Source of the DNA: Paenibacillus sp. FSL R5-0766
Lineage (GTDB): Bacteria; Bacillota; Bacilli; Paenibacillales; Paenibacillaceae
Assembly: GCF_037971845.1 (NCBI RefSeq)
Contig: NZ_CP150227.1
Coordinates: 2,604,001 to 2,668,000, forward strand
Length of the DNA: 64,000 bases
Direction: 5' to 3'
Positions 1-18,235 of this stretch are shown in pieces; the first letter of the stretch is position 1; each line of letters begins with the position of its first letter. The notes beneath the pieces were generated by a model. That model was not told the DNA's origin and did not search any database. It saw only the letters and a program-made list of their open reading frames with translations. A program made the translations under genes and the position numbers.

Positions 1-270
1 ATAGATTTATGTAATCAGATTTTAAGTGACGAGGAGAAACATGTTCAGTTTCAATCCGAAACACTTCATAAATTTGCTCAAAATAGAAACGTCTTCTTTA
101 ACAGAATAGTTTATACCCTTCGTAGAATTCTTTTTGAAGGAACGCTAATTATAGTGTGGTATCAACATAAGCCTGTATTTAAAGCTGGGGGATATAAACT
201 CAAAAGTTATTACTATGAATGCCGCCATGAGTTTAACTTAACAAAGAAGATTATAGCTAGTTTACAGTAG
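1..270 (+). CDS. Ferritin-like domain protein, C-terminal part (partial)
   Basis: An open frame runs in from the left edge and ends at TAG 268-270, giving the last 89 residues of a protein. The residues DEEKHVQFQ followed by a helix-rich tail resemble the last metal-binding helix of ferritin-like or rubrerythrin-like proteins, where E and H of an ExxH pair bind iron. The rest of the protein lies outside the window, so the family call is tentative. Thirteen bases after the stop the first structured repeat begins (GATAAC at 283), so this is the left-most gene of the cassette-like array. Confidence 0.5.
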   Translation: MDLCNQILSDEEKHVQFQSETLHKFAQNRNVFFNRIVYTLRRILFEGTLIIVWYQHKPVFKAGGYKLKSYYYECRHEFNLTKKIIASLQ

Positions 271-282
271 AGGTTTATGTCA

Positions 283-450
283 GATAACATTATATCCATA
301 CTTTAGGTCCTGACGCTCCCTCGGTCAGCCCGAAGGGAATTGGCAGGGAAGTGGAATCTGGCGGACACATCCGCACCGACTAACCGCATCGCGTTCGCCC
401 CGAACGTGGCTTAAGTCGGTGGGGCGTCGTGATACAGTAACGTTATAGGA
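283..450 (+). repeat. attC-like structured element 1
   Basis: The left end reads GATAACATTATATCC and the right end GATACAGTAACGTTATAGG, so ATAAC.TTA and TAACGTTAT face each other as inverted arms. Inside are the shared blocks GGCAGGGAAG, GGACACATCCGC, GACTAACCGC and CTTAAGTCGG; CCGACT and AAGTCGG can pair as a hairpin. Type B of the family, closely similar to elements 6 and 10. A gene with its own ribosome site starts 57 bp further on. Confidence 0.75.
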
Positions 451-506
451 AATCAGCGTATAAAAATACAAAATAAATTATTCAAACTCTGAATAGGAGT
501 GAAATC

Positions 507-1166
507 ATGCTGGAAGCGGTTATTTTCGATATGGATGGTACACTATTTCAAACAAACAAAATCTTAGAGTTATCGTTAGAAGAAACGTTTTCTATCTTGA
601 GGTCTCGTAATGAATGGTCGAGTGAGACTCCAACTCAAAAATATCGTGAAATTATGGGAGTTCCTCTACCAGTTGTTTGGGAAACGTTATTGCCGAACCA
701 TTCAAATGAAATCAGACGAATTGTGGATGAGATCTTCCTTGAGAAGTTAATTGCAAATATTAATAATGGCAATGGCGCCCTATATCCGCATGTCAAAGAA
801 ATTTTTAATTACTTGAAAGATGAAGGCTATTTCATTTTTATTGCAAGTAATGGACTAAACGAATACCTTAATGCCATCGTTAACTGCTATAAATTAGATA
901 AGTGGGTGGCAGAAACTTATAGCATCCAACAAATAGGAACTCAAAATAAGGATGACTTAGTCGGTCATATTCTTAAAAAACATCACATCAGCAATGCAAC
1001 TGTAGTTGGGGACAGGATTTCTGATTTCAATGGCGCAAAAAACAATGGGTTGAAGGCTATTGGTTGTCGATTTGATTTTGCCCAAGAAGGGGAGCTTGCA
1101 CAAGCGGATTTTATTATTGACGACTTACTTGAATTAAAAAATATATTTAGACATCAGGGAAAATAG
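507..1166 (+). CDS. HAD-superfamily phosphatase
   Basis: 219 aa. Motif I is FDMDGT with the nucleophile Asp8 and acid/base Asp10, and the late acidic motif GDRISD (about residues 168-173) binds Mg2+. The helical segment between them looks like a C1 cap, as in phosphoglycolate phosphatase and nucleotidase-like HAD enzymes. The substrate cannot be read from the sequence. AGGAGTG stands about 8 bp before the ATG. The gene lies alone between two structured elements, like a cassette, and is AT-rich compared with them. Confidence 0.85.
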   Translation: MLEAVIFDMDGTLFQTNKILELSLEETFSILRSRNEWSSETPTQKYREIMGVPLPVVWETLLPNHSNEIRRIVDEIFLEKLIANINNGNGALYPHVKEIFNYLKDEGYFIFIASNGLNEYLNAIVNCYKLDKWVAETYSIQQIGTQNKDDLVGHILKKHHISNATVVGDRISDFNGAKNNGLKAIGCRFDFAQEGELAQADFIIDDLLELKNIFRHQGK

Positions 1167-1205
1167 AATACTTTTGTAATTATATCGATGAAGACGCTGA
1201 AGTCC

Positions 1206-1311
1206 TATAACACCATAGTTAAGCTACGGTTACCCCTTGGTCACAATGATGTTTTTGGCTGATTTATGTGACAACTTGCTGCGTAAGTTTGGGAACACAA
1301 AAAAGTTAGCA
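1206..1311 (+). repeat. attC-like structured element 2 (degenerate)
   Basis: The left end ATAACACCATAG and right end AAAAGTTAGC flank the shared internal block ACCCCTTGGTC. The GTGAATAC arm is missing, so this copy is diverged and its limits are approximate. It fills the space between the HAD gene and the peptidase-like gene, as every element in the array does. Confidence 0.4.
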
Positions 1312-1373
1312 AAAATCAGGGGAATGCTTAATTAAAAGATTAGATAAACTATTAGTTAAGGACGGGGATTTCA

Positions 1374-2000
1374 ATGAGTAGCTTGTTACTAACCTCTTGT
1401 GGTTTTTATACAGATGATATTAAAAATCAATTTCTGGATTTTATTGATGGAGATATTTCTCAATTAAAAGTCTCAATTATTACAACAGCATCCCCTAGAA
1501 AAGAAACTAATAGATATGCACAAAGAGCAATGCAAGAGTTTAAGGACATGGGATTTCAGCATATCAATTTTGTAGATATTGAATTTGATGACCCGCAAAT
1601 TCTCTTACATAGAGATGTTATATATATTAATGGTGGAAATCCATTTACACTATTGTATTACGCTAAGAAAAGTGGTGCTGATGAAATTATCAGAACACTG
1701 GCCGCACAGAATGTAATTATAGTTGGAGTAAGTGCAGGAACGTTATTACTGGGGCCGAATATTAACATTGTCGATTTCTTTACTCCACAGATGAACACAA
1801 TGAATTTAACGGATTTTAAGGCATTAGGTGTAACAGACAAGCTTATTTTTCCTCACTATGATCGAGAGGACATATTTAAAGATCGTACTAATAAAACAAT
1901 CGAAGAGAGAATAGTAGAATTTGAATGCAATGAGAAATGTAAGGTGACAAGGCTTAAAGATGAAGAATATATCTCAATCTTAATGAACCAAGCACATTGA
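1374..2000 (+). CDS. Peptidase E-like / type 1 glutamine amidotransferase-like protein (S51 family)
   Basis: 208 aa. INGGNPF (residues 85-91) and GVSAG with Ser120 match the S51 (PepE) fold, in which this serine in the nucleophile elbow cleaves Asp-X dipeptides or related substrates. Length fits the family (200-235 aa). GGGGAT lies before the ATG. It is the single gene of its unit between elements 2 and 3. Many S51 homologues in Bacillota are uncharacterised, so the substrate is open. No signal peptide, so cytoplasmic. Confidence 0.8.
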   Translation: MSSLLLTSCGFYTDDIKNQFLDFIDGDISQLKVSIITTASPRKETNRYAQRAMQEFKDMGFQHINFVDIEFDDPQILLHRDVIYINGGNPFTLLYYAKKSGADEIIRTLAAQNVIIVGVSAGTLLLGPNINIVDFFTPQMNTMNLTDFKALGVTDKLIFPHYDREDIFKDRTNKTIEERIVEFECNEKCKVTRLKDEEYISILMNQAH

Positions 2001-2048
2001 AAGTGATAAATTCATTGAAAGTAGCTCGAAGAAGACCCTAAAATCTTG

Positions 2049-2201
2049 CCAACACCGTATTCACGCTGCGGGGCTACGCCTCTTGGTCTGCCAGTGGGGG
2101 GTCGAGGAAGTGGTATCCAGCAGACAACTCCTGTGAGGATAAGTCTTCGACCCAGTCGCCCCATTAAGTCTCTCGGGTTCGTGAATACAACAACGGTAGA
2201 T
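2049..2201 (+). repeat. attC-like structured element 3
   Basis: Best-preserved type A copy. GTATTCACG (2057-2065) and CGTGAATAC (2180-2188) form a perfect 9-bp inverted repeat about 115 bp apart. Outside them are AACACC on the left and AACAACGGTAGA on the right. Internal blocks: GCTGCGGGGCTACGCC, CTTGGTCTGCC, CGAGGAAGT, CAACTCCTG, TCTCGGG. The open frame of the following HAD gene runs on through this element, but that extension is not coding. Confidence 0.75.
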
Positions 2202-2237
2202 AAAATAACGAAGAAGTTTATATTGGGAGTTGATTCA

Positions 2238-3017
2238 TTGAAGTATTCAACTGTAGTTCTTGACTTGGACGGAACATTATTAAATTCAAAAAAAGAAGTA
2301 TCTAAGAGAAACGTAGATGCGATCTTATCTTGTTATCAGAAAGGAATGAGAATAATATTTGCAACAGCTCGACCGCCCAGGGCGGTTAATTGGTTGCTTC
2401 CACAAGGATTAGTAGATATCGGGGCTTTTGTATATTACAACGGAGCTCAAGTGATATGTAAGGAAACCAAGATAGAAATTAATGAATCAATCCCTGCTAA
2501 TGTAACTACAGAAATTCTTGATTACTGTTTGAAGTGTGACCCTCAAATTGAGCTGACTATGGAAGTGAAGGATGAGTGGTTTAGTTTAAGAGAGCTTGAT
2601 TATATGAGCTCAATGAACACACAATCAAACCCCATAGTAAAACCCTTAAAAGAATTAAAGCAATATGATGCTACGAAGATACTTCTGACTGGCAATAATC
2701 ACAATTCTGGATTGTTTGAAAAATTCGAGGGTAGAGTGAATATACTAATTACGGATAATAATAAATTAGTACAAATCATGCCTCTTCTGGCATCTAAGGA
2801 AATGGCAATTACTAAACTCTGTGAATTATATAATGTAGAATTGGATTCCGTTATTGTATTTGGGGATGATCATAATGATGTAGGCCTCTTTAAGATGGCG
2901 GGATATTCTATTGCTATGGGAAATGCGATTAGGGAATTGAAGGAAATCGCTGATGAAATAACCGTTAATAATGATGAAAACGGTGTTGCTGTAAGTCTAG
3001 AAAGATTTTGTGGGTAA
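2238..3017 (+). CDS. Cof-type HAD-superfamily hydrolase (Cof/YidA-like)
   Basis: 259 aa from TTG 2238, preceded by GGGAG at 2225-2229. An upstream ATG at 2046 would add 64 residues encoded by the structured element, so it was rejected. Motif I DLDGTLL is close to the N-terminus, and GDDHNDVGLFKMAGYSIAMGNA near the C-terminus is split by the family's usual GDDxND Mg2+ site. The middle is a C2 cap, typical of Cof-type phosphatases that act on sugar phosphates, FMN or other small phosphoesters. Single gene of its unit. Confidence 0.85.
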   Translation: MKYSTVVLDLDGTLLNSKKEVSKRNVDAILSCYQKGMRIIFATARPPRAVNWLLPQGLVDIGAFVYYNGAQVICKETKIEINESIPANVTTEILDYCLKCDPQIELTMEVKDEWFSLRELDYMSSMNTQSNPIVKPLKELKQYDATKILLTGNNHNSGLFEKFEGRVNILITDNNKLVQIMPLLASKEMAITKLCELYNVELDSVIVFGDDHNDVGLFKMAGYSIAMGNAIRELKEIADEITVNNDENGVAVSLERFCG

Positions 3018-3040
3018 CTCAAGGTTACTTTATCTAAGAG

Positions 3041-3187
3041 TACATTCATACACCGTCGCACTTGCTCCTCGGTCGCCAAGAAGGATATCGGAGAAGTTGA
3101 TTAAGGCGACACACTCAATCAGCTAAGTCTATTAACTCGTTCCTACGGTAAGCTGCTTGAACGTCGTGAATACAACAACGTTAGCTG
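3041..3187 (+). repeat. attC-like structured element 4
   Basis: Right end GTCGTGAATACAACAACGTTAGC is the type A arm plus the AACGTTA terminus. The left arm is ACATTCATAC (partly matching ATTCAC). Internal CTCCTCGGTCGCC recalls the CTTGGTCTGCC block of its relatives. The gene that follows starts 30 bp after the element. Confidence 0.6.
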
Positions 3188-3217
3188 AAAGAAGTTCTTA
3201 TTTTAGGAGGGGTCTAT

Positions 3218-3988
3218 ATGATATTAGGAAAAGTTATAAATAAAATTACCATACAAAGTGAATATAAGGATTTAGTTGATAAGTATGTGGATCATATTCT
3301 TAACGAATTCAAAGATAAGATTCATAGCATTTATATGTGTGGCTCGATTCCAAAAGGAACGGCTCAACCTTTTAAGTCAGATGCAGACTTTACTATTGTA
3401 TGTGCAAATCCCGAAGATATTGATTACGAAAGATTGTCAATGATTAAAGACAGGCTTTTGGAAGAATATCCATTCGTCACTAAAATGGATACGATCATTT
3501 GCTCGATTGATGATGTATTAAGTAGACCGAATGATTGGGGTTTTTGGATTAAGATCATTTGTGTTTGCATACATGGGGAGGACATTGGTGAAAAAGTACC
3601 CCCGATCATAATTTCTCCAGAATTCATTTTAGAGTTAAATACAGATACCAAGGAGGAAGTAGATCGTGTACATCGTTCACTTTCTAATGTCAGTGATGAC
3701 TCAATGAAAACTAGATATATTAAAGGTTACTCTAAGAGATTAATTCGTGCATTATACTCTTTGGTTTTAGAAGATACAGGGGTATGGGAAGATGAAATCA
3801 TTAAGATGAAGAATGCCATATTAAACTATTGTGAGATTAACGCCGCTTTAGTTGAATATCTATATGCTTGTTACTTGGATAGTAGCAATGTACTTGTTGA
3901 AGAGTTTTTGAGAATTGCAGATGAAGTATATCGCTATTTTGAGAACGCTTTAAATACAATGGCTGCTTCCAGAAATTCATTTGGCTAA
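3218..3988 (+). CDS. Nucleotidyltransferase-domain protein (aminoglycoside adenylyltransferase-like)
   Basis: 256 aa. CGSIPKGTAQ (41-50) followed by SDADFTIV (54-61) is the pol-beta nucleotidyltransferase signature, GS...DxD, with Asp55 and Asp57 as the likely metal ligands. The C-terminal half is helical, as in streptomycin/spectinomycin adenylyltransferases and kanamycin nucleotidyltransferase. The family transfers NMP from NTP to a hydroxyl group; an antibiotic substrate is possible but not shown. GGAGGGG lies 9 bp before the ATG. Single gene of its unit; its stop codon is inside the left end of element 5. Confidence 0.75.
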   Translation: MILGKVINKITIQSEYKDLVDKYVDHILNEFKDKIHSIYMCGSIPKGTAQPFKSDADFTIVCANPEDIDYERLSMIKDRLLEEYPFVTKMDTIICSIDDVLSRPNDWGFWIKIICVCIHGEDIGEKVPPIIISPEFILELNTDTKEEVDRVHRSLSNVSDDSMKTRYIKGYSKRLIRALYSLVLEDTGVWEDEIIKMKNAILNYCEINAALVEYLYACYLDSSNVLVEEFLRIADEVYRYFENALNTMAASRNSFG

Positions 3989-4081
3989 CAATATATTAAC
4001 GATCGTAATCACCTTGAGAAGCGAGTGACCACATCCAGCCCCTAATCCCGTCGGGACATCGCCAATACAAAACGTTATCGG
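3984..4081 (+). repeat. attC-like structured element 5 (short)
   Basis: Only about 98 bp. The left end GGCTAACAATA includes the stop codon of the nucleotidyltransferase; the right end CAATACAAAACGTTATCGG has the typical terminus. CCACATCC and CGTCGGGACATCG stand between. A compact copy: the end sequences are kept while the centre is shortened. Confidence 0.6.
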
Positions 4082-4117
4082 AAATCAGTTAAAATCAATA
4101 TCAATATGAGGTGCGTA

Positions 4118-4920
4118 ATGGATCGTAAGATTATTCAAACCGCAAAAGAGATTGCAATAAGAATTATTCGCGAAGCAGGTCTAATCTCTAAAGAGAAGTT
4201 TGATAACTTTGTTGAACTGAGATCTAAAGATGAATTTGGGGATGTGGTTACTGAAGTAGATCATATCTGTGAAGAAATGATTATCAAACAAATCCAAGAC
4301 GTATTTCCAAATCATCAGATACACAGTGAAGAGGCAGGGCTTATCGGAACTAAGCACGATTGGTTATGGTTAATTGATCCTTTAGATGGAACTAATAATT
4401 TTGCGATTGGTTTACCTGTTTTTGCGATATCAATTACCTTAATGTATAAAAAAGATCCTGTGCTTGGAGTGGTCTATGAACCTCTAACAGAACGTTTATT
4501 TGTATCTGTTATTGGTGAAGGGACAAGCTGCAATAATCGACAAATACAAATTAAGAGTAACCCGAATATTTTCAAAGGAAATATAGGTTGGATTCAAGGT
4601 CACAGAGTACAAAACGACCCACAAGCAGTAAAACTAAGACAACACATTGATATTAGATATAAACGAATGTTAAGATTATGGGCTCCAACGATTCAATGGT
4701 GTATGTTGGCCAAAGGAGATATTGATGGAATTATTCTGTACAATTCTGAAGGTGATGACTTGTATTCAGGTATCTTAATGGTTAAGGAAGCAGGGGGGGG
4801 CTTGTTATAGATTTTGAAGGAAATAAGTTTAATGGAATGAAAGAAGAACCTTATCTAATTGCATGTCACCCAGACCACAAAGAAGAACTATTGCAAATTG
4901 TAAGAGAAGGATTGAGCTAA
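4118..4920 (+). pseudogene. Inositol monophosphatase family protein, frameshifted in a G8 tract
   Basis: Start ATG 4118 after GAGGTG (4108-4113). EEAG (71-74) and DPLDGTNNF (87-95) are the Mg2+-binding motifs of the IMPase/FIG superfamily, which removes phosphate from inositol or related sugars and nucleotides. The frame stops at 4810 just after a run of eight G (4793-4800). Adding one G restores KEAGGGLVIDFEG and an open frame to TAA 4918-4920, giving the family's normal length of about 265 aa. The break may be a real mutation, a slippage (phase-variable) site, or a base-calling error in a homopolymer. As written, the second C-terminal part is lost. Confidence 0.85.
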
Positions 4921-4942
4921 CACCTAGAAGCAACTGACTTCA

Positions 4943-5110
4943 TTTAACATTATATCCACGTTTTGGAGCCTGACAGTTCCTCTGTCCACGAGAAGCAATC
5001 GGCAAGGAAGAGAATCAGCGGACACATCCGCCCTGACTAACCGTTTCATGGCCGGACTATTGAGGGTCCTTAAGTCGGTTGGACGTCGTGGATACAGGAA
5101 CTTTATACGA
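4943..5110 (+). repeat. attC-like structured element 6
   Basis: Type B copy, very similar to element 1: left end TTTAACATTATATCCACG, internal GGCAAGGAAG, CGGACACATCCGC, GACTAACCG and CTTAAGTCGG, right end CGTCGTGGATACAGGAAC followed by TTTATACGA where others have GTTATCGGA. The terminus has therefore lost the G of GTTAT. Confidence 0.7.
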
Positions 5111-5166
5111 CAAACTCTAATTATATTTATGTGGGCTAATTGCATAGAAGCAGGGAGGACATATTA

Positions 5167-5628
5167 ATGATTAGAACAGTTTCACTTTGTGTTATCCGAA
5201 GAGGGGATGAACTACTGTTAGAAGAGTTTTTTGATGAGGCTGTAGGCATAACTTATTATCGACCTATAGGGGGAACCGTTGAATATGGAGAAAGTAGTAA
5301 AATCACCGTAATTCGTGAAGTCAAAGAAGAAATTGATGCAGATATTTCAGAACCTATCTTGATTGGTGTAATTGAGAATATATTCAACTATCGGGATCAA
5401 ATTGGGCATGAAAATGATTTTATTTATGAGGCTGAACTTATGAATAGATCACTTTACGATTTGGAAGAAATAGATGGTATAGAAGGAAGTAAACCCTATA
5501 AAGCAGTTTGGAAACCACTAAATTATTTTAAGGGGAATTTGACAGTAAAACTGGTACCAGATGGGTTACTAGAGTTGCTTCAAGACGGAACAGATGGAAG
5601 ATATATTAAACACTTAAGTAAACGATAG
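5167..5628 (+). CDS. Nudix hydrolase
   Basis: 153 aa from ATG 5167, which has AGGGAGG 9 bp upstream; an in-frame ATG at 5140 has no such site. The Nudix box GGTVEYGE...REVKEEID spans residues 35-57, with the REVKEE glutamates that bind Mg2+; the final Gly of the consensus is replaced by Asp. Nudix enzymes hydrolyse nucleoside diphosphates linked to another group; the substrate is not predictable here. Single gene of its unit, between elements 6 and 7. Confidence 0.85.
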   Translation: MIRTVSLCVIRRGDELLLEEFFDEAVGITYYRPIGGTVEYGESSKITVIREVKEEIDADISEPILIGVIENIFNYRDQIGHENDFIYEAELMNRSLYDLEEIDGIEGSKPYKAVWKPLNYFKGNLTVKLVPDGLLELLQDGTDGRYIKHLSKR

Positions 5629-5654
5629 CTTGAGGGATTTGAAGAAGATGGGGC

Positions 5655-5806
5655 TTATAACAACGTATTCACTCTGCGTGCTAACACCTTAGGCCCGGCC
5701 GAAGTTATGGCAGGGAAGTGAAAACAGCCTGACAACCCTGCGAGCATAAGTGCGGCGCCCCGCTTTATTCGGTCACTTAAGACTTTCGAGTCGTGAAGAA
5801 AGAATA
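5655..5806 (+). repeat. attC-like structured element 7
   Basis: The left arm TTATAACAACGTATTCAC (5655-5672) is the clearest type A left end in the window. Inside are GCTAACACCTTAGGC, GGCAGGGAAG and CACTTAAGACT. The right arm is degenerate: AGTCGTGAA is kept, but the AACGTTATC terminus is replaced by AT-rich sequence. Confidence 0.6.
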
Positions 5807-5831
5807 AATTTATTCGAAAGATGGTGAAGCG

Positions 5832-6815
5832 ATGAGTGCTATAAATACTAAATCCGTACAAAACGAAATTATAAAAGATATCGAAACAAAATATGGGTGG
5901 ATTGTATATGCAGTTGAATCAAACTATTTGGGTCATGGTAATTTAAAGTGGATTATGACAACTAATATTGGGCCCATCTTCGTTAAACAATATTGCAAGA
6001 TAAGGTATCGACGCGGATTAGATGGGGTTCGAGACGCATTGAAGTATCAACATCTTATGCATCTTGATGGAATTCCTTGTCAGCCAGTATATAGTTACAA
6101 CAGTGAGTATATTCATACCACATTTTCCGGCGAGGATTATATGATTTCTGGTGTTAGCACAGGACATTTGATAAAAGCAGGGCAATTAAACAGTCTTCAG
6201 ATGTATAGTCTTGGCGAGGCTACTGGTCGTATGCATATGTGGATGAAAACACATATGCCGAAATTACCATACTTACAGTGGGAGTTGCCTTCAAAGGCAA
6301 AGATGTTTGAAAAGATACAAGCAAATCTAAATGAAATGAAAAAAATGACTAATCAAAGATACATAGAAGCTATAGAGAATCAAAGAATTATTCTTAAAGA
6401 ATTAGATTTGGATATATTCAATGAGTGTGCTAAAGGATGGGCGCATTGGGATATGCATGTCGACAATTTATTATTTCACGAAGATCGGTTAGTAGATATT
6501 TTAGATTTTGATAGACTACACTACGTATATTCAGATTTCGACATTTCCCGCGCAATACTCTCAAGTGCACTTTTAGATGACGGGAAATTAAATGTTGAGT
6601 CAACTAGGGCATATATTGATGGTTATAGAATTCATACTAATCTCACGATAGAACAGTTGGTACTATCGATTAAATTAACTTGGTACAAAGAGTTTAAGTG
6701 GGTACATGAAAAGTACAGTCAAGATAGAGCAATGAGTCGGTTTATCGAGGAAATGATTTGGATAGGGAATGAGTGGGAGAATCTCGAAGAGATATTCACA
6801 ACTATCTTTAAATAA
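5832..6815 (+). CDS. Aminoglycoside phosphotransferase (APH)-family kinase-like protein
   Basis: 327 aa. HWDMHVDN (205-212) is the catalytic loop of APH/choline-kinase-like enzymes, with Asp207 as the base; the usual HGD is HWD here. LDFD (224-227) supplies the Mg2+-binding Asp. The N-terminal lobe has the small-kinase fold pattern GHGNLKW then VKQY. The family phosphorylates hydroxyls on aminoglycosides, choline, homoserine or other metabolites, so resistance is only one possibility. GGTGAAGCG lies before the ATG. Single gene of its unit. Confidence 0.8.
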   Translation: MSAINTKSVQNEIIKDIETKYGWIVYAVESNYLGHGNLKWIMTTNIGPIFVKQYCKIRYRRGLDGVRDALKYQHLMHLDGIPCQPVYSYNSEYIHTTFSGEDYMISGVSTGHLIKAGQLNSLQMYSLGEATGRMHMWMKTHMPKLPYLQWELPSKAKMFEKIQANLNEMKKMTNQRYIEAIENQRIILKELDLDIFNECAKGWAHWDMHVDNLLFHEDRLVDILDFDRLHYVYSDFDISRAILSSALLDDGKLNVESTRAYIDGYRIHTNLTIEQLVLSIKLTWYKEFKWVHEKYSQDRAMSRFIEEMIWIGNEWENLEEIFTTIFK

Positions 6816-6824
6816 TGATTGTGG

Positions 6825-6929
6825 GTCAATTCGGACTAGTCAGCGTCAGCCCTGAGAGGTTAAATCCGTTGGACCCGGAGCGATATATCTTACGCCTCTC
6901 GGGTTCTTAGATACGGGAACGTTATCGGA
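6825..6929 (+). repeat. attC-like structured element 8 (short)
   Basis: About 105 bp. It keeps CTCTCGGGTTC (the block before the right arm in elements 3 and 9), then TAGATACGGGAACGTTATCGG as the right end. CAGCCCTGAGAGG and CCTCTCGGG can pair. The left arm is not clear. Confidence 0.55.
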
Positions 6930-6969
6930 AATATTCGTAAATACTTTATTTTTTGGGGGCATCTCAAGG

Positions 6970-7512
6970 ATGAGTGAAAAAACAATAATTATTGAAGATT
7001 ACAACAATGAAATGCCTGAAATGTTTTCTGATCTGAAATCCATCATAGAACAAAGACTCGGGGATCTAGTACTTAGAATTGAGCACGTTGGTAGTACCGC
7101 AGTATCTGGACTAGCGGCAAAACCTATTTTAGATATTGATGTAGTAATTGATTCTATGGACTTGCTTCCAGATGTAATTCAAGGATTAGAAAGTTTAGGT
7201 TACTATCATGAAGGGAATTTGGGTGTTGAGAACAGAGAAGCTTTTGCAAGAAAAGATGCAAATGTTCCTTATAGTATAGTAAAAATACAGAAACCTAAAC
7301 ATCATTTATATGTTTGTAATAAATAGAGCAAAGAGTTACTAAGACATATATCCTTCAGAGATGCACTAATTAGCAATCCCGAATTTGTAGTCGAATATGG
7401 CAATCTAAAGAAAGAACTTGCTATTAAATATGGAGAAAATCGTCAGTCTTATACGGATGGGAAGACCGAATTTGTAAATAAAGTACTTAATGAATATGGA
7501 AAGAACTTGTAG
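6970..7512 (+). pseudogene. GrpB (UPF0157) family protein with an in-frame amber codon
   Basis: The reading starts MSEKTIIIEDYN and carries the family hallmarks HVGSTAV...AKPILDIDVV (about residues 39-58), placing it in the GrpB/UPF0157 group of the nucleotidyltransferase superfamily. The frame stops at TAG 7324-7326 after HLYVCNK. Translation continues in the same frame without another stop to TAG 7510-7512, through KELLRHISFRDAL, exactly where intact relatives continue, so a single GAG-to-TAG change would explain it. Total potential length 180 aa. Likely inactive unless the amber codon is suppressed. Confidence 0.85.
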
Positions 7513-7539
7513 GTTGCTCAATGGGATTAAAACATCCGA

Positions 7540-7695
7540 TAGCAAATTATTCACGCTGCGGGGCTAACGCCCCTTGGCCTGCCAGAGATGTTTCGAGGAA
7601 GTCGTATCAGACGACAACTCCTACGAGGCTAAGTTTTCGACCCATCGCTGGTGCTCTTTAAGCTCTCGGGTTTGTGAATACAACAACGTTATCGG
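7540..7695 (+). repeat. attC-like structured element 9
   Basis: Type A, close to element 3: ATTATTCACGCTGCGGGGCTAAC at the left, then CCCCTTGGCCTGCC, CGAGGAAGTCGTATC, CAACTCCTACGAGG, CTCTCGGG, and GTGAATACAACAACGTTATC plus GG at the right. TATTCAC and GTGAATA pair across about 120 bp. It follows the stop of the broken GrpB gene by about 30 bp. Confidence 0.75.
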
Positions 7696-7719
7696 AAATC
7701 TTACAAAGGATATGAAAAC

Positions 7720-8370
7720 GTGAATATTAAAGATTTTAGAAAGCTAATTAGGGTGTATTTTGCTCCAAAACTACATGAGGTTGGGTTTATGGGAACCGAT
7801 CACCATTTTGTGAAGACAACTGATAATCACTTTATTTACACTCTGGTGATTCAGGCAGATAAATCCGGTGGATCTTGTGTTATGGAGATGGGGGTGCATC
7901 TAGATTTTCTTCCTAATTCTATTGGTGAATTTAAGTCTTCAAATGAAATCACGACCTATGATTGTGAATTCAGAAAACGTCTTAATAAAAAAGCAAATTG
8001 GCTGAAGAGATTTTTTACTGTGGAGCATGAAAGATGGTTTCAATACGGAAAAACAGAGGATGATGCAATAGTTACTATAAATGAAATGAAAAAGTTGTTT
8101 TTGGATCAAGGAATGAGTTATTTTTCTCAATTTAATGATCCTAGGATGATTACATCAATTTCATTGGCCGAGATAATAGCTAGATCTAAGAAGATTGAAG
8201 ATTTTGGAGCTCCACTTGATTTAAGGCTGGTTTTGTTAATTGCACGAACGCATAAATTTCTAGGTAATGATAGGGACGCGAAAGTTTATGCTCATTGGGG
8301 ATTAAATAATATTGGGGAAGCAAAAGGACTCATTAAGGACTTTAAGACCATAGGTCTAGGGAGTTTCTAA
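7720..8370 (+). CDS. DUF4304-domain protein
   Basis: 216 aa from GTG 7720 (AAAGGA at 7705-7710; the ATG at 7713 is out of frame and closes at once). The N-terminal half, with LRP-like FAPKLHEVGF, HHFVKTT and the following VMEMGVHLDFLP, resembles DUF4304, a soluble domain of unknown function common in small accessory genes. No transmembrane segment or catalytic motif is visible. Its stop codon lies inside the left end of element 10 (CTAACATAATATCC), the tight packing expected of a cassette. Confidence 0.65.
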   Translation: MNIKDFRKLIRVYFAPKLHEVGFMGTDHHFVKTTDNHFIYTLVIQADKSGGSCVMEMGVHLDFLPNSIGEFKSSNEITTYDCEFRKRLNKKANWLKRFFTVEHERWFQYGKTEDDAIVTINEMKKLFLDQGMSYFSQFNDPRMITSISLAEIIARSKKIEDFGAPLDLRLVLLIARTHKFLGNDRDAKVYAHWGLNNIGEAKGLIKDFKTIGLGSF

Positions 8371-8531
8371 CATAATATCCGTGCTTCGGCGCCTAAAGGC
8401 TCCACGGTCCGCGAGAAGCAATCGGCAGGGGAGAGAACTAGCGGACACATCCGTAAGACTAACCGCATCGCGGTCGCTCCAATTGGTCGCTTAAGTCGGT
8501 GGGAGGGTCATGGATACAACAACGTTATGCC
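8366..8531 (+). repeat. attC-like structured element 10
   Basis: Type B: CTAACATAATATCCGTG at the left overlapping the preceding stop codon, GGCAGGGGAG, GGACACATCCG, GACTAACCGC, CTTAAGTCGG, and GGATACAACAACGTTATG at the right. Strongly similar to elements 1 and 6 over its whole length. Confidence 0.75.
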
Positions 8532-8575
8532 CCATTATCGGTAAATATCAAAGATAATATTTAAGGAGATAATTT

Positions 8576-9229
8576 ATGAAAGGTAAGATACTCTTCTTAT
8601 TATTTATTGCGATAGTGTTTTCATCTTGCCAAAATAGTAGTCAATTGACTACCATGAACAGCGAAACTAAATCAATAATGAATTCTGAACTGCCTCCTGA
8701 TGTAGTGAGTAAAGGTGATGGAACAGAATCGAAAGAAATAACTGAAAGTCAATCAGATGCTTCTAACAATGAAGTGTTATCCATGAGCATTGGGAACTAT
8801 GAATTGAAAGGAGAATTTTATGATGAAATGCTTCGAAATCCTATAGATCATGATTATGAAGTGGAATTTAATGAGGCTCAAAATTCAAAAGAGATTATTA
8901 CAACAATGGGATGGGGGGCGTTGGAAAGCAAATATACAGAGATTTGGGATAAAGAGTTGAATCAAATATATAAAAAGCTTCGTTCTAAGTTGGATAGAGA
9001 ACCAAGAGAAGCACTAATCGAATCGCAGAAAGAATGGTTACAGTATCACTTAAAGGAAACAAAATTTGTAGAGAAGGCATTTATTAATAATGGTTACCTT
9101 GGATCAAAAGGTTCGGTAAGCCTAGGCACGGTTATACGGGAGAGAATTAGGGAAAGAACAATGCAATTATTTGAATATCGATATTTGCTAGATGGTGAAG
9201 TTGAGTTTTTATACCAAAGTAAAAAATAG
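8576..9229 (+). CDS. Lipoprotein with LprI-like (DUF1311) domain
   Basis: 217 aa. A short lysine-containing N-terminus, a hydrophobic stretch LFLLFIAIVF and the lipobox FSSC (Cys19 or so) mark it as a membrane-anchored lipoprotein. A Ser/Thr/Glu-rich linker follows. The C-terminal part, with EIWDKELNQIYKKL and KEWLQYH, fits the DUF1311/LprI family; a few LprI members inhibit lysozyme, but that role is not shown for this group. AAGGAGA precedes the ATG by 9 bp. The only exported product in the cassette-like array. Confidence 0.75.
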   Translation: MKGKILFLLFIAIVFSSCQNSSQLTTMNSETKSIMNSELPPDVVSKGDGTESKEITESQSDASNNEVLSMSIGNYELKGEFYDEMLRNPIDHDYEVEFNEAQNSKEIITTMGWGALESKYTEIWDKELNQIYKKLRSKLDREPREALIESQKEWLQYHLKETKFVEKAFINNGYLGSKGSVSLGTVIRERIRERTMQLFEYRYLLDGEVEFLYQSKK

Positions 9230-9280
9230 AGTTGGAATCTGAATCAAAGGTTTTAGGTGATGCTTCGAAGTCAGTAACGG

Positions 9281-9428
9281 CATATAACAATGTATTAAGT
9301 TGCAGGGATACCATACCTTGGTTATTAGATGTATAATCATGGAAGAAAACTCAGAAAACACGACTCAGCCTAAGATAAGAGCTATCCAAGGCTGGGTATT
9401 TTCGTGAACGTGCAGGACGTTATACAAC
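9281..9428 (+). repeat. attC-like structured element 11 (diverged)
   Basis: Left end CATATAACAATGTATTAAG resembles ATAACAACGTATTCAC of element 7. Inside is ATACCTTGGTTATT, and AGCC...AAGGCT can pair. Right end TTTTCGTGAACGTGCAGGACGTTATAC keeps CGTGAA and ACGTTATA. It lies between the lipoprotein and the small regulator gene. Confidence 0.55.
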
Positions 9429-9493
9429 AGAATCAAAAACAATAGGAAAAGAGAGTTTTATAACCCCAGAAGATAGAATTATGGAGGGGAAGC

Positions 9494-9715
9494 ATGAACA
9501 TAATCAAGTGTAATATACGAGAACTCATGGCAGAACATCGAATAGATGATATAACAGAGTTGATGGCAAAATCGGGCTTAAGTCGGAATTCGATCAATAA
9601 GCTCTATAGGGAAACAAATATAGAAACAACAAAGTTGGAAACCTTATTCAAGCTATGCGATACATTTAATTGTAAATTATCTGATTTGATCGAATACGTG
9701 CCAGGAGAAAAATAA
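9494..9715 (+). CDS. Small XRE-family transcriptional regulator (YozG-like)
   Basis: 73 aa. The whole protein is one helix-turn-helix domain: IRELMAEH, then ELMAKSGLSRNSINKLY (recognition helix) and KLETLFKLCDTFNCKLSDLIEYVP, the ending shared by the Cro/CI-type HTH_26 group such as YozG. GGAGGGG lies 8 bp before the ATG. It is alone in its unit. Such small regulators often control neighbouring genes or act as antitoxins; no partner is visible here. A paralogue is at 10855. Confidence 0.8.
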   Translation: MNIIKCNIRELMAEHRIDDITELMAKSGLSRNSINKLYRETNIETTKLETLFKLCDTFNCKLSDLIEYVPGEK

Positions 9716-9717
9716 AT

Positions 9718-9807
9718 AGTGAGGTCCGGAGCCTTGGTCTGTGGATGGAGTTTGAGAAGGAATTTCAGAGCCCCCCCTTTGGGTTCAAGAATACAGAAAC
9801 GTTATCC
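9718..9807 (+). repeat. attC-like structured element 12 (short)
   Basis: Starts at the stop of the regulator. GGAGCCTTGGTCTGTGG is the shared internal block, followed by GAGAAGGAATTTCAG, TTTGGGTTCAAGAATACAG and the terminus AACGTTATCC. It keeps the core and right end but lacks an obvious left arm. Confidence 0.55.
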
Positions 9808-9846
9808 AATACTCCCAATCAAAACAACAAGCATAGGAGCAATATT

Positions 9847-10248
9847 ATGACAATCATTTTCAAAGAAGTAAAAGACATTGATACACAAGCAATTCAAGAA
9901 CTGTTTCACTCGGTTGACTGGAAATCAGGAGATTTCCCAGAAGATCTTAGACAAGCAATAAACAACTCGCATACGGTTATTACTGCATGGGATGATAACA
10001 AATTAGTTGGTTTAATAAATGCATTGTCTGACGGCGTGATGACAGTATATTTTCATTACATGTTAGTACACAAAGAATATCAATCATTAGGAATTGGAAA
10101 GAGCATGATGGAACAAATGCTTAGTCGATATTCTAATGTCAAAACAAAAGTACTTATATCCTATGATAGTGCAGAAAAATTCTATGGAATATTTGGATTT
10201 AAGCCAGAAGAAGGAACTAAAGCCATGTTTATTTCAGATATGGTATAG
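9847..10248 (+). CDS. GNAT-family N-acetyltransferase
   Basis: 133 aa from ATG 9847, with AGGAG at 9835-9839; an in-frame ATG at 9745 would translate element 12 and was rejected. VHKEYQSLGIGKSMMEQML (about residues 78-96) holds the Q/RxxGxG/A acetyl-CoA pyrophosphate loop, and EKFYGIFGFKP is the usual C-terminal Tyr-containing segment. The acceptor substrate is unknown. Single gene between elements 12 and 13. Confidence 0.85.
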   Translation: MTIIFKEVKDIDTQAIQELFHSVDWKSGDFPEDLRQAINNSHTVITAWDDNKLVGLINALSDGVMTVYFHYMLVHKEYQSLGIGKSMMEQMLSRYSNVKTKVLISYDSAEKFYGIFGFKPEEGTKAMFISDMV

Positions 10249-10363
10249 CATTAAGAGGAATTTCGGTAGCAAGGAATCACAGTCATTGGACACATCCGCA
10301 CAGCGGCCGAATTAAAACGGGGACTTAAGTCGGTGGGGCGTCGTGAATACAGGAACGTTTCGA
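10249..10363 (+). repeat. attC-like structured element 13
   Basis: Type B core without a clear left arm: GTAGCAAGGAATCAC, TTGGACACATCCGCAC, GACTTAAGTCGGTGGGGCG, then TCGTGAATACAGGAACGTTTCGAC at the right. The terminus is AACGTTTCG in place of AACGTTATC. It starts right at the GNAT stop codon. Confidence 0.6.
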
Positions 10364-10395
10364 CAGACTCAAATGAAAAGAGAGCCATTTGGCTC

Positions 10396-10683
10396 TCAAT
10401 TAGATGATATATTTAATTCATTATGTAATTGAAGAGCATCCTTAAAACCTTGTAAGTAGATTTCACGTTCTAAGATTGCTTGAACAGAAAGGTCTGCGTC
10501 ATCGTAAAGAAATAGAGTTTTATGCATATCCTGAGGTAAAAGCTCATGTAACTGTTTGAAGTAAAGATTCCGATCTGAGGAGTATTGATTATAGATGGAG
10601 TTATTTTTGAGAAGATCGATATATAGAGCTTCAATCCGATTACGTATCAAAGAATCAAGTAGGACTTCTAAAGAATTGTGCAT
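10396..10683 (-). CDS. Hypothetical 95-aa protein, antisense to the array
   Basis: 95 aa on the minus strand with GGTGATC before the ATG. No recognised family with certainty; the ending REIYLQGFKDALQL and the charged helical pattern recall small uncharacterised Paenibacillus proteins (DUF6809-like), a weak resemblance. It is the only gene in the array that points left. It diverges from the regulator at 10855, and an AT-rich 170-bp stretch between them could hold promoters for both. The two genes share one unit between elements 13 and 14. Confidence 0.55.
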   Translation of the reverse strand: MHNSLEVLLDSLIRNRIEALYIDLLKNNSIYNQYSSDRNLYFKQLHELLPQDMHKTLFLYDDADLSVQAILEREIYLQGFKDALQLHNELNISSN

Positions 10684-10854
10684 AAAAGATCACCATCCGT
10701 TATGTTTTATTTTGCGAATAAAAATTTAACTTATTGAATATTATTTTATCATAACGAAAATCATATTCAAGTCATATCAAAGATATTTTTGATTAAGAAA
10801 AAATACTTTCATATAATTAAAGAAAAATTCAATTCGAATATGAAGGGATACCAG

Positions 10855-11058
10855 ATGATAAGTTATAAACCATTTCAAAAATTATTGATTGACAGGGAGA
10901 TTAAGAAGCAGGATTTATTAAAAATCACAGGGATCTCATCGGCAACGATGGCAAAACTCAATACGAATGAGTATGTATCTTTAGAAGTAATTGATAAATT
11001 ATGTACGGCATTGGGATGCCAGCCTGGAGATCTATTGGAGCATATAGCAGATCAATGA
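10855..11058 (+). CDS. Small XRE-family transcriptional regulator (YozG-like)
   Basis: 67 aa from ATG 10855, preceded by AAGGGA (10843-10848); the open frame extends upstream to 10789 without a ribosome site. Domain: FQKLLIDREIKKQDLLKITGISSATMAKL, then VIDKLCTALGCQPGDLLEHI, the HTH_26 pattern seen also at 9494. It diverges from the 95-aa gene at 10396, suggesting that it may regulate that gene or itself. Confidence 0.75.
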   Translation: MISYKPFQKLLIDREIKKQDLLKITGISSATMAKLNTNEYVSLEVIDKLCTALGCQPGDLLEHIADQ

Positions 11059-11064
11059 TGGGAC

Positions 11065-11200
11065 GATAACATCTGCTGTTAACCAAAATTGAGATTCCGT
11101 CGTATGACATAAAGCAACGGCTCCTAACGGAGCCTTGGTCTGCTAAATGGATTTCAAAGTTGATATTTTGGCAGACACCTCCGAGAGTTTGTTGAACTGC
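11065..11200 (+). repeat. attC-like structured element 14 (degenerate)
   Basis: GATAACATC at 11065-11073 gives the left end. CGGCTCC and GGAGCC make a short hairpin, next to GGAGCCTTGGTCTGC, the shared core, and GCAGACACCTCCGAGAG. The right terminus is not recognisable before the ribosome site of the next gene. Confidence 0.5.
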
Positions 11201-11257
11201 ATAAAAAAGGAAGGTGATTAGAAATCACTGCAATAAATTAAAAAGGAGAAGCTAATT

Positions 11258-11782
11258 ATGTCTAGACCTTTAAGAATTCATATTATAGGTTCAACTGGTA
11301 GCGGAAAAACATACCTTGGTCAAGTTTTGTCAGAGAAGTTACATATAAAAATTTACGAACTAGATACAGTCATGTGGAGCAGTAAAGTGGAGTTTTCAGG
11401 AAAGAATTCTCCAGACGTGAGAGATAAATTACTACATAAAATAATTGATAATGATAGTTGGATTGTAGAGGGAGTATATTATAAATGGCTTTCTGATAGC
11501 TTTTCAAGAGCAGATGTAATTTATTACCTAGACACTAATGTTTTGATTCGACATTTTAGAATTATCATGAGATTTGTTAAACAAAGAATAGGCGCAGAAA
11601 GATCTATATACAAGCAAACATTAAGAGGACTAATTGAAATGCTTATTTGGAATCATAAATTTAATAGTACAAATCGGAAAGAAATCTGTAGTTTCTTGTC
11701 CCCTTATAAAGACAAAGTGATAATCTTAAAAACCAACAGGCAAATGATAAGTTTACTCAATGAAGGCAGGGAAATCACATAA
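11258..11782 (+). CDS. P-loop kinase-like protein (FlaR/topology-modulation family)
   Basis: 174 aa. The P-loop GSTGSGKT (11-18) is near the N-terminus. YELDTVMW, then SWIVEGVYYKW and a basic lid FVKQRIGAER follow the adenylate-kinase-like pattern of the group often annotated as DNA topology modulation protein FlaR. It is likely a small-molecule kinase; no substrate is known. AAGGAGAAG lies 7 bp before the ATG. A clear paralogue lies at 40983 (GSCGSGKS, YELDNLIWD, WIVEGV). Its stop is inside element 15. Confidence 0.75.
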   Translation: MSRPLRIHIIGSTGSGKTYLGQVLSEKLHIKIYELDTVMWSSKVEFSGKNSPDVRDKLLHKIIDNDSWIVEGVYYKWLSDSFSRADVIYYLDTNVLIRHFRIIMRFVKQRIGAERSIYKQTLRGLIEMLIWNHKFNSTNRKEICSFLSPYKDKVIILKTNRQMISLLNEGREIT

Positions 11783-11842
11783 CTACGCATTCACACACCC
11801 AGCATATGCTGGGTCTTATATACAGAAAAGTATGTGAAATCG
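11778..11842 (+). repeat. attC-like structured element 15 (compact, 65 bp)
   Basis: Left end ATAACTACGCATTCACA (overlapping the stop codon of the kinase gene) matches ATAACAACGTATTCAC of element 7 with one inserted base. Right arm TGTGAAATCG pairs with ATTCACA. In the centre is a perfect palindrome CCCAGCATATGCTGGG. The size is close to that of the shortest known attC sites. The AACGTTAT terminus is not preserved. The palindrome could also act as a weak terminator. Confidence 0.5.
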
Positions 11843-12297: not shown

Positions 12298-12381
12298 CTA
12301 TTCCATTCGAGGAAGAGTGGTTATTTAAACCACCATAGGAGCCATTCCTGTAATGAAGTAATTTGAGCTTTGAATGAAAAA

Positions 12382-12449
12382 TGCGCCTTTAGTATACTGG
12401 GAATCGTTGTTCCGACCAAAGAACAATACCCACACACGAAAAGAGGCGC
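12382..12449 (+). promoter_or_regulatory. Long hairpin just upstream of the IS110 transposase
   Basis: GCGCCTTT (12382-12389) pairs with AAGAGGCGC at the other end (about 12441-12449), and inside TGGG...TTGTTC pairs with GAACAA..CCCA around the loop CGACCAAA. The ribosome site of the transposase (AGAGG) lies in the right arm, so the fold could limit its translation. It may also be a recombination end structure or part of the element's guide RNA. Confidence 0.5.
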
Positions 12450-12453
12450 ACAA

Positions 12454-13752
12454 ATGAAGTATAAGATGAAACAGAAACAGAATCAACGTATTACGCGAAT
12501 TACAGAAGATACGCTAGTCATTGGAGCAGACATTGCCAAAAAGATTCACGTAGCTAGAGCGGTAGATTTCCGTGGCATTGAATTAGGAAAAGACTGCGTG
12601 TTCTACAACGATCAGGAAGGGTTAACTAGGCTAGTAACATGGATGAAAGAACTTCAGGAGGTTCATCTGAAAACGGACATTGTTTTCGGAATTGAGCCTA
12701 CCGGGCACTACTGGTTTCCGCTAGCCGCTTTCCTGGAAGCTCGAGATATCAAGATCGTCATTGTGAACCCGCATCACGTAAACAAGAGCAAGGAACTTGA
12801 GGATAACTCGCCGACGAAGAGTGACTATAAGGATGCCAAAGTCATTGCAGATCTCATTCGAAACGGGAAGTACTCGGAGCCCAAATTGCCGGCAATGGAA
12901 TATGCCGAACTACGCATCCTCATGAATTTCCGTGAGAAGGTTATGGTGAGTTTAAACCAAGTCAAGGCACGTGTGCATAATTGGTTCGACCGCTATTTTC
13001 CAGAGTATTTGAGCGTGTTTAAAGATTGGGAAGGCAAAACTTCCTTGATGACCATGCGCCAGTTTCCGACACCGGAAGAGATCGTCTCTACAGGCGCCAG
13101 AGGCGTTCTCGCACACTGGAAAACGGAAGTGAAGCGTGGAGTTGGTATCAAGAGAGCGGAAAAGCTCTTTGCAACAGCCGGGATATCCATCGGGCTTACC
13201 GAAGGGTTACGAGCTGCGAGACTGGAGCTTCTGAGCTTGCTCGACCAGTATGAGCTTTTCTCTAAACAGGTGGAAACGACCATGAAACAGGTCATGGATA
13301 TCTTGAGTGAGATACCGGGAACGACGCAGATGTTGAATATCCCAGGCGTTGGCGCGGTTACCGTTGCAGGATTTCTGGCTGAGGTTGGCGATCTGAGTCA
13401 TTACGACCACGGGCAACAAATCATCCGGTTGGCGGGCTTGAATCTAAAAGAAAATAGTTCTGGTAAGCGTAAGGGTAAAACGGGCATTACCAAGCGTGGA
13501 CGATCTCGACTAAGAGCCCTATTGTTCCGTTGCGTCATGCCAATGGTAGCTAAGAATGAGGAGTTCAAGGCCCTTCACAAGTATTTCACAACACGAAGTC
13601 AAAATCCGCTGAAGAAAAAGCAGTCGCTCATCGCGCTCTGCGGCAAACTGATACGCGTCCTGCACACGCTGGGGACGAAGGAAATAGAGTACAACGCAAA
13701 CGAAGTTCTTGGTCCTGTACGACAAGCGCAGTTACAACAGATTGCAGCTTAG
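12454..13752 (+). CDS. IS110-family DEDD transposase
   Basis: 432 aa from ATG 12454 with AGAGG upstream; a TTG at 12370 in the same frame was rejected because it precedes the hairpin. The N-terminal RuvC-like domain shows GADIAKK, then FGIEPTGHYW, then KSDYKDAKVIADL, the D-E-D-D residues of the family. The C-terminal Transposase_20 domain has LNIPGVGAVTVAGFLAEVGD, followed by IRLAGLNLKENSSGKRKGKT with the conserved serine. Together with a bridge RNA the enzyme joins target and donor DNA. The GC content is higher than in the flanking cassettes, which fits later arrival. It appears intact. Confidence 0.95.
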   Translation: MKYKMKQKQNQRITRITEDTLVIGADIAKKIHVARAVDFRGIELGKDCVFYNDQEGLTRLVTWMKELQEVHLKTDIVFGIEPTGHYWFPLAAFLEARDIKIVIVNPHHVNKSKELEDNSPTKSDYKDAKVIADLIRNGKYSEPKLPAMEYAELRILMNFREKVMVSLNQVKARVHNWFDRYFPEYLSVFKDWEGKTSLMTMRQFPTPEEIVSTGARGVLAHWKTEVKRGVGIKRAEKLFATAGISIGLTEGLRAARLELLSLLDQYELFSKQVETTMKQVMDILSEIPGTTQMLNIPGVGAVTVAGFLAEVGDLSHYDHGQQIIRLAGLNLKENSSGKRKGKTGITKRGRSRLRALLFRCVMPMVAKNEEFKALHKYFTTRSQNPLKKKQSLIALCGKLIRVLHTLGTKEIEYNANEVLGPVRQAQLQQIAA

Positions 13753-18146: not shown

Positions 18147-18235
18147 TCATGGAAGCAGATCGTTATTGCAAATAAAGATACTCGATACTGTAGTAATTAA
18201 GCAAAAAGCTGAATTCCGAAACTGTGGAGGTTATG

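Follow-up and report, generated by a model that had tools for sequence, protein, structure and literature searches.

In the parts of the IntegronFinder 2.0 report considered here, integrons are described as extremely rare in Firmicutes, with one complete integron, that of Limnochorda pilosa, and a few clusters of attC sites lacking an integrase (CALIN) (PMC9024848). In our own literature search, with preprints and most subscription journals outside its scope, none of the titles or abstract openings listed dealt with integrons of Paenibacillus. We have analysed a stretch of 64,000 nucleotides from Paenibacillus sp. FSL R5-0766 (the window; bases 2604001-2668000 of a 7.0 Mb single-contig genome), in which small genes alternate with repeated GC-rich elements between window positions 283 and 11842. 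Comparison with related genomes indicates that this region is very probably an orphaned cassette array belonging to a divergent kind of chromosomal integron, and Paenibacillus and many other Bacillota appear to have an integron kind of their own.

Sequence reading and repeat finding placed all of the elements on the plus strand, with left ends of the ATAAC type and right ends of the AACGTTA type and, together with the covariance model R1 (built from 12 elements, eight of them inside the window), confirmed the claim of a first-pass annotation of this DNA that elements with such shared ends lie between almost all genes. That annotation had counted about fifteen units, almost all with one plus-strand gene; one open reading frame (ORF) of the ORF list is on the minus strand (10396-10683), and the array itself begins outside the window; the size range of 65-170 bp gave way to several length classes of about 96, 117, 145, 160 and 190 nt. 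Over the window and the adjoining 60 kb on its left, R1 recovered 16 elements, of which 12 made up the training set. Four of them lie left of the window (L006 16982-19519), which therefore puts the start of the array outside it. Within the window R1 matched 12 of the 15 elements, eight by construction (elements 1, 3, 4, 5, 6, 7, 9 and 10) and four from outside the training set (elements 8, 11, 13 and 14), while elements 2, 12 and 15 had no R1 match, and no further place in the 64 kb was found at E <= 1. Element 2 acts as a boundary nonetheless, since homology to two relatives resumes at its right end (window 1302).

The behaviour of the genes between the elements was followed by comparing 345 cassettes from 62 arrays, with eight named loci that duplicate others omitted from the pair and element counts. 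This comparison gave 57 similar pairs between different genomes, with 25 usable left and 22 usable right boundaries, at 21 and 17 of which the neighbours differ. Inside the cassette, identity in five-base blocks was 0.85-1.00 at left boundaries and 0.80-0.98 at right ones; past the conserved core it fell to 0.18-0.34 at the former and to 0.13-0.32 at the latter, apart from one right-hand block of 0.56. On both sides the change of homology falls within AACG|TTA, letters that are too conserved to fix the exact base. Window 3180-4074, for instance, shares 88-90% identity with cassettes that stand among other neighbours in P. taichungensis and P. periandrae. Likewise, a cassette of the present array (OWN 18009-18869) has a counterpart of 98.8% identity in Paenibacillus sp. 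PAMC 26794 (L087/L124), where it belongs to an integrase-bearing array on a different contig from that strain's copy of the window's flank. A cassette of Saccharibacillus sp. JS10 (L109), flanked by other neighbours, matches it at 86.5% identity, and over most of its length it shares 92.6% identity with part of the integrase locus of the close relative G022. As the likeness to PAMC 26794 includes the left element (OWN 17900-18883), this pair is not among the 21.

At the locus itself, homology of the left flank stops at OWN 16396-16408, the attI-like site, in all four relatives compared, whose last flank blocks are 95.7% (G022), 92.9% (G011), 91.5% (G016) and 95.8% (G008) identical; the sequences of our strain and of G022 both read TTACGAAGTTCGTATATATGATG|TTA and diverge right after it. 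Past this point the genomes hold differing selections of the window's cassettes, interspersed with others. The first cassette of the array (a GNAT gene with element A1) is absent at this place in G022, and the Hydrolase_3 cassette (2238-3017) is present in G008 and was not found at the same place in G022, G011 and G016. Order is preserved save for one G011 block (window 10817-11184, 86.6%), which is placed elsewhere. Where the first-pass annotation had left room for an unchanging gene order between strains or for RNA genes unlinked to mobility, the content of the array changes from strain to strain, its order does so in one comparison, and the elements are linked to the mobility of cassettes.

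In many relatives, frames of about 360-420 residues near the arrays encode tyrosine recombinases, which the integron integrase profile TIGR02249 matched in two pieces. A scan of named genomes yielded 79 such loci, mostly from Paenibacillus, Saccharibacillus, Cohnella and Gorillibacterium, the rest being weaker relatives in other groups. R1 found 342 elements at these loci, and at least 52 of the 79 carry them among the 300 matches listed; the remaining 27 gave four weak matches only, so that R1 hardly reaches other phyla. In a script search based on a consensus pattern, 293 of 304 elements lay downstream of the integrase and codirectional with it, seven upstream and four on the opposite strand (integrase ends being approximate), and 49 of the 79 loci have such downstream elements. 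At L178 (697-5210) elements also occur upstream of the integrase on the same strand, hence one array may flank the integrase on both sides. Of 296 genomes sampled from the order, 104, belonging to 23 of 48 genera, contain the family at E <= 1e-60, several copies having stops or being cut.

The integrase is followed by a characteristic site. The motif ACGAAGTTCGTAAATAAGACG|TTA, with up to seven errors, occurs after the integrase stop codon at 41 of the 45 loci checked; among 824 control windows taken from these loci, 16 contain it. The 45 come from the 52 loci with listed elements (L112, L123, L135, L138, L152, L155 and L165 were left out), and L108, one of the 41, is probably spurious. The attI-like site of the window's array carries the motif at L006 16378-16401 with three substitutions, similarity beginning at about 16310 and the expected crossover falling after 16398, and its likeness to the attI of L127 covers about 100 bases. 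The array extends from this site, 3.6 kb left of base 1, to window 11842, about 15.4 kb in all. The array thus possesses an attI-like site but no integrase.

The first-pass annotation had proposed to look for a recombinase gene left of base 1; none was found there in searches of the 60 kb to the left and of the whole genome. A whole-genome Pfam search located five recombinase places, none of them near the array (XerD-, XerC- and XerS-like proteins, one other integrase and one fragment), and the G022 integrase gave chance matches only against the window and the 60 kb to its left. In G022 the integrase frame is intact at 1.657 Mb, and the flank before it is 94-95% identical in our strain; at the corresponding locus of the latter the single good trace of the enzyme is a 14-residue match to its end. 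Judging from this remnant, the window's copy of the system has lost its integrase, which, by the position in G022, would have sat about 0.86 Mb away. The array keeps its attI-like and attC-like sites and could now be altered only if an integrase were provided in trans. Near the lost integrase locus lies a second cluster of the elements, in a decayed state (L072 11079-11128; L073 202-336, 2833-2883 and 8069-8164; 1.736-1.753 Mb), and one extra weak element is found at 4.03 Mb (L074 9304-9456, minus strand).

The elements are common in the order. Searching genomes with the covariance model, as the first-pass annotation had proposed, found them at E <= 0.01 in 46 of 59 genomes: every one of the 36 examined from Paenibacillus, among them our own, and 10 of the 23 from elsewhere in the order; their presence in 45 of the 58 other genomes is independent evidence against chance. 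An even sample of 296 Paenibacillales genomes from 48 genera gave R1 matches at E <= 1e-6 in at least 190 genomes, representing 26 of the genera, a lower bound since nine candidates were scored per genome. Among 395 elements, GAAA is conserved to 85-95% after GTTA and three further bases, a position outside the search pattern, whereas GTTA itself, present in nearly all elements, sat in the pattern. The canonical attC R box has the consensus RYYYAAC/GTTRRRY. The base next to GTTA is T in 65% of the elements, which breaks the RRR of that consensus.

Consensus folding of elements of mixed size with RNAalifold gave 12 pairs only, and size classes had to be separated. The short class, 75 distinct 90-base elements in a gapless alignment (from relatives, with one from the second cluster of our strain), folds as a cloverleaf with an R arm of four pairs, an L arm of eight and hairpins of four, seven and seven pairs, 95.6% of the cells being paired. 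Sixteen pairs show change on both sides, with 140 double-change cells against 48 +/- 7 after shuffling and 4-20 when the partners are slid. The R and L arms are paired in 98.0% and 97.3% of cells, respectively, forming complementary arms around a variable head. Two further positions hold conserved A.C mismatches when read on the top strand and G.T pairs when read on the bottom one (70 and 71 of 75); as the elements were collected with a consensus pattern, conservation within it is partly built in, these A.C positions included. For the larger classes, which include most elements of the window, covariation was followed in less depth, the outer arm covarying in 12 elements.

Domain scans of six of the recombinases gave an N-terminal part reaching about 100 residues at most (shortened in L086 by the chosen start), a SAM-like domain and a catalytic domain, in which R230, K255, H320, R323, H346 and Y355, presumably the catalytic residues, are invariant in 11 of 11 rows. 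Among five proteins scanned against NCBIfam, the best match of the family was NF040815 (XerA) with 194-225 bits (cut-off 220, three of five above it); TIGR02249 gave 181.6-209.3 bits against a cut-off of 265, a value that no recombinase reached in any of 59 genomes. The best solved relative is IntI4 (2a3v), also the best structural match of a predicted model of the P. xylanilyticus integrase (E 2.3e-16; pLDDT 84, pTM 0.56). The alignment to 2a3v omits IntI4 residues 180-238, which we take to be the place of the IntI-specific domain, the family having 17 residues against these 59 (about 42 fewer). An additional domain around patch III is attributed to known integron integrases in the part of the literature source drawn on here (PMC9668308). 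The N-terminal part modelled alone (pLDDT 82) had the SMARCAL1 HARP domain (E 0.1, probability 0.92) and the N-terminal half of XPB (E 0.13, probability 0.94) on top of a structure search that gave no match at E <= 0.001, and Pfam HARP was matched in seven of 28 members (best E 5e-4, the single score shown being below the Pfam cut-off). These weak matches suggest that the integrase may carry a HARP-like N-terminal domain. HARP domains bind forked DNA. Within the literature scope given above, no paper contained both 'HARP domain' and 'tyrosine recombinase'.

Descent was analysed in a tree of 61 rows, without L179 (internal stop) and without the IntI2 stretch of R721 (L279); the integrase row set A5 omits the internal-stop rows L124, L131, L136, L137, L143, L145 and L146, as well as L121 and the open L108. 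The seven IntI rows formed one starred clade (100/100), which grouped with nine relatives from Patescibacteria and further bacteria (99/98) and not with the family. In the main clade of the family (80/67), two relatives join 27 of the 28 family rows; the row that falls outside is that of Mangrovibacterium, L174. A single clade of the 27 family rows and IntI was rejected by topology testing (p 0.0014), while one of the 24 Paenibacillaceae rows and IntI was not (p 0.063), which makes two origins possible but does not prove them. At four of the nine relatives grouping with IntI, no clear array was seen among the repeat families listed. The enzyme is not IntI: the IntI-specific region is missing, scores lie below the cut-off and IntI belongs to another clade.

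A mechanism can be outlined from these comparisons. The genomes of relatives encode a tyrosine recombinase, extended by an N-terminal domain, directly before an attI-like site and an array of cassettes that run in the same direction as its gene, each cassette typically consisting of one short gene and its attC-like site. The bottom strand of the site would extrude to form a hairpin with the R and L arms at its base and a three-arm cloverleaf or a longer branched form as its head, the cloverleaf being shown by covariation for the short class and the strand being presumed. The integrase would be expected to cut at the G|TT of AACG|TTA and produce circular cassettes for insertion at attI or between attC sites, with the exact base and the reaction postulated, and the HARP-like domain, to go by its weak matches, probably helps to grip folded or forked DNA. 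We incline, with some reserve, to the view that Bacillota possess a second integron class, widespread in Paenibacillales and scattered elsewhere in the phylum, whose recombinase never had or has lost the IntI-specific domain and would instead recognise junctions in folded single-stranded DNA through a HARP-like domain.

Other explanations can be set against an integron. Structured RNAs (terminators, attenuators or an RNA family) might simply follow the genes, whose changes would then reflect ordinary horizontal transfer, and indeed the top strand also folds as a cloverleaf and the elements sit after stop codons. This is extremely improbable in our judgement, given that the elements have no match in Rfam (whose one weak match in the window lies elsewhere and is unrelated), that homology units end at one fixed place within the right end of the element, that a similar core recurs as the attI-like site beside a recombinase, and that A.C mismatches of the top strand become G.T pairs on the bottom strand, letters belonging to the search pattern. 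It is hardly conceivable either that the array is a classical IntI-type integron or an orphan array derived from Proteobacteria. The likeness to proteobacterial integrons noted in the first-pass annotation stands for the layout, and IntI4 is the best solved match, but the integrase of the relatives lies outside the IntI family: none of the 59 genomes attains the TIGR02249 cut-off, the recombinase is about 42 residues short of the IntI-specific region, the seven IntI rows make a separate starred clade and the system is widespread in the order. The Xer-like character of the family, with NF040815 as its best NCBIfam match, and the IS110-type transposase right of the array could point to modules moved by the host XerC/XerD at dif-like sites, or to a transposon with the elements as non-autonomous copies, the neighbouring recombinase being incidental. 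We regard this as very unlikely, since the elements are folded and far larger than dif, all but 11 of 304 lie downstream on the strand of the recombinase, and the unit that moved is gene plus element, not the element alone.

An integron-type cassette array, as the first-pass annotation had read the region, finds support in the attI-like site, the folded attC-like sites, the gains and losses bounded by AACG|TTA and the recombinase beside the arrays of relatives. Several observations weigh against this reading or parts of it. The breakpoint pairs share loci and are not independent, and 30 of the 79 integrase loci had no downstream element in the script search, many of them cut by a contig end and others from other phyla. 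A whole-genome search of our strain for the integrase returned only Xer-like proteins and a fragment at 31-40% identity, hence no intact family integrase. A generic scan (a model-free search for TAAC, two arms and GTTA) gave four plus-strand and two minus-strand matches in the window against a shuffled mean of 1.8. The choice of strand is weakly supported: DNA folding energies of 364 elements made the bottom strand more stable in 213 and the top strand in 143 (p = 2e-4), while wobble counts do not separate the strands (40 vs 51, p = 0.29). As to a Pc promoter, TTCGCA-17-TATCAT in the attI of L127 is one of five promoter consensus matches in 301 bases (shuffle mean 1.1), consensus matches being all that represents it.

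Related loci extend beyond the order. A phylum sample of 398 Bacillota genomes from 266 genera contained the family at E <= 1e-80 in 31 genomes, representing 27 genera; two of these genomes are from Paenibacillus. Twelve loci of other Bacillota were scanned (L312-L323; L324-L327 were left out). Six of the twelve have attC-like arrays with their related integrases: on the integrase strand, the generic scan found 5, 6, 5, 5, 3 and 9 sites in L315, L316, L317, L320, L322 and L323, against shuffled means of 0.1-1.0; many of them end on the right in GTTAnnnGAAAT and a few are upstream of the integrase or chance-like. The same scan gave no match in L312, L314 and L318, two each in L313 and L319, and three in L321 against 1.3 after shuffling; it gave none in L143, L157, L156 and L174 and two in L158. 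In L150, from Pseudobacteroides, the integrase is followed by four sites and by similarly built repeats, with four matches on the other strand too. A Dehalococcoidia contig (L145 7089-10362) holds a related integrase with an internal stop and six repeats like AGCCGTAAATGCTCTGTTATCTGAAGT, 286-885 bases apart, possibly an array of the same kind in Chloroflexota, for which the generic scan gave one site on the integrase strand and four on the other. In a Chryseobacterium plasmid (L281 2980-7020) a related recombinase precedes small genes, and a 188-base repeat occurs at 4128 and 6223 with 97% likeness; the generic scan found no attC-like site there on the integrase strand.

The cassettes of the array encode small proteins of varied families. 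Left of the window lie elements A1-A4 (L006 16982-17140, 17900-18016, 18760-18876 and 19362-19519; plus strand, R1), and the window opens with the tail of a cassette whose start is outside it (1-282, plus strand), the beginning of the array having been traced into L006. All features of the array that follow are on the plus strand, apart from the minus-strand ORF. Element 1 (283-449; R1 117 bits, expected crossover G|TT at 442|443) precedes a gene for a HAD-family hydrolase (507-1166; Pfam HAD_2, 3.2e-19), and element 2, degenerate and with an uncertain left end (1199-1310; homology to G022 and G008 resumes at 1302), precedes one for a family S51 peptidase (1374-2000; Pfam 9.1e-27). Next come element 3 (2048-2202; 122.3 bits) and a HAD-family hydrolase gene (Hydrolase_3; 2238-3017; 3.2e-54), element 4 (3033-3187; 121.5 bits) and a nucleotidyltransferase-like gene (3218-3988; NTP_transf_2, 1e-4), and element 5, which is short and overlaps the stop codon (3984-4081; 49.4 bits), with a gene of the inositol monophosphatase family (4118-4810; 8.4e-46). 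The frame of the latter stops right after a G run (4794-4810), and a longer frame seems to go on in another register, whether by phase variation, decay or sequence error. Element 6 (4943-5109; 122.8 bits) is followed by a NUDIX gene (5167-5628; 4e-6), element 7 (5656-5816; 89.1 bits) by a phosphotransferase family gene of the APH fold (5832-6815; 2.6e-9), and element 8 (6795-6928; 23.8 bits, E 0.0036) by a GrpB family gene with an early stop (6970-7326; 7.6e-25). As the Pfam match reaches about two thirds of the profile, up to an early TAG at 7324-7326, this is probably a decayed cassette gene.

The right half of the array continues with element 9 (7538-7695; 125.9 bits) and a DUF4304 gene (7720-8370; 3.2e-12), element 10 (8366-8530; 120.7 bits) and a gene for an LprI-domain protein (8576-9229; 2.2e-11), and the diverged element 11 (9283-9426; a weak 14.9 bits, E 0.39) with a Cro/C1-type helix-turn-helix (HTH) gene (9494-9715; HTH_26, 2.9e-18). 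Element 12, short and with the right end AACGTTATCC, was recognised from its sequence and repeat family D1 (9712-9806), and is followed by a GNAT acetyltransferase gene (9850-10248; 2.8e-13). Element 13 has a degenerate left arm (10248-10359; 31.4 bits, E 6.5e-5, over 10216-10359); beyond it and the minus-strand ORF lies a second Cro/C1-type HTH gene (10861-11058; HTH_26, 6.9e-23). The inner part only of element 14 is left (11119-11184; 30.2 bits, E 1.2e-4, a partial match to model positions 23-86), and the last gene carries an AAA_18 domain (11258-11782; 1.1e-5, 26.3 bits, below the Pfam cut-off of 29.4), followed by element 15, a degenerate remnant with one cloverleaf arm (ACCCAGCATATGCTGGGT) identified by sequence (11786-11842). 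An IS110-family transposase gene lies directly right of the array (12370-13752), within a block that G022 also has.

If these arrays are working integrons, a large gene-capture system of Bacillota may have been overlooked, perhaps because search models require IntI. The missing IntI region and the HARP-like domain would allow a direct test of what a recombinase needs for folded single-stranded DNA, as well as of integron origins, and a second class, if true, would mean two enzymatic solutions for cassette capture, with separate origins or descended from one ancestor that predates IntI. The cassettes also offer a readily available supply of small enzymes that await study.

Compared with known systems, the present one resembles the chromosomal (sedentary) IntI integrons such as those of Vibrio in its tandem one-gene cassettes, the imperfectly palindromic attC sites and the occurrence of orphan arrays, and likewise in an attI beside a tyrosine recombinase, a G|TT crossover and a cassette content that varies between strains. 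It differs from them in its recombinase, codirectional with the array, without the IntI-specific region and with an extra N-terminal domain, and in short attC sites whose heads are cloverleaves and whose right end runs on as GTTAnnnGAAA. The integron of Limnochorda pilosa comes from the same phylum, where it is reported as the only complete one beside a few CALIN (PMC9024848). With XerA/NF040815, named 'site-specific tyrosine recombinase/integron integrase', the family shares scores above the cut-off in three of five scanned members, and NCBI may already use that name for them, but the solved archaeal XerA-like structure 4a8e aligns only to the part after the N-terminal domain. Finally, the window's array is like a CALIN in having no integrase, and unlike one in that it retains an attI-like site at its left end and that G022 keeps the integrase at another locus.

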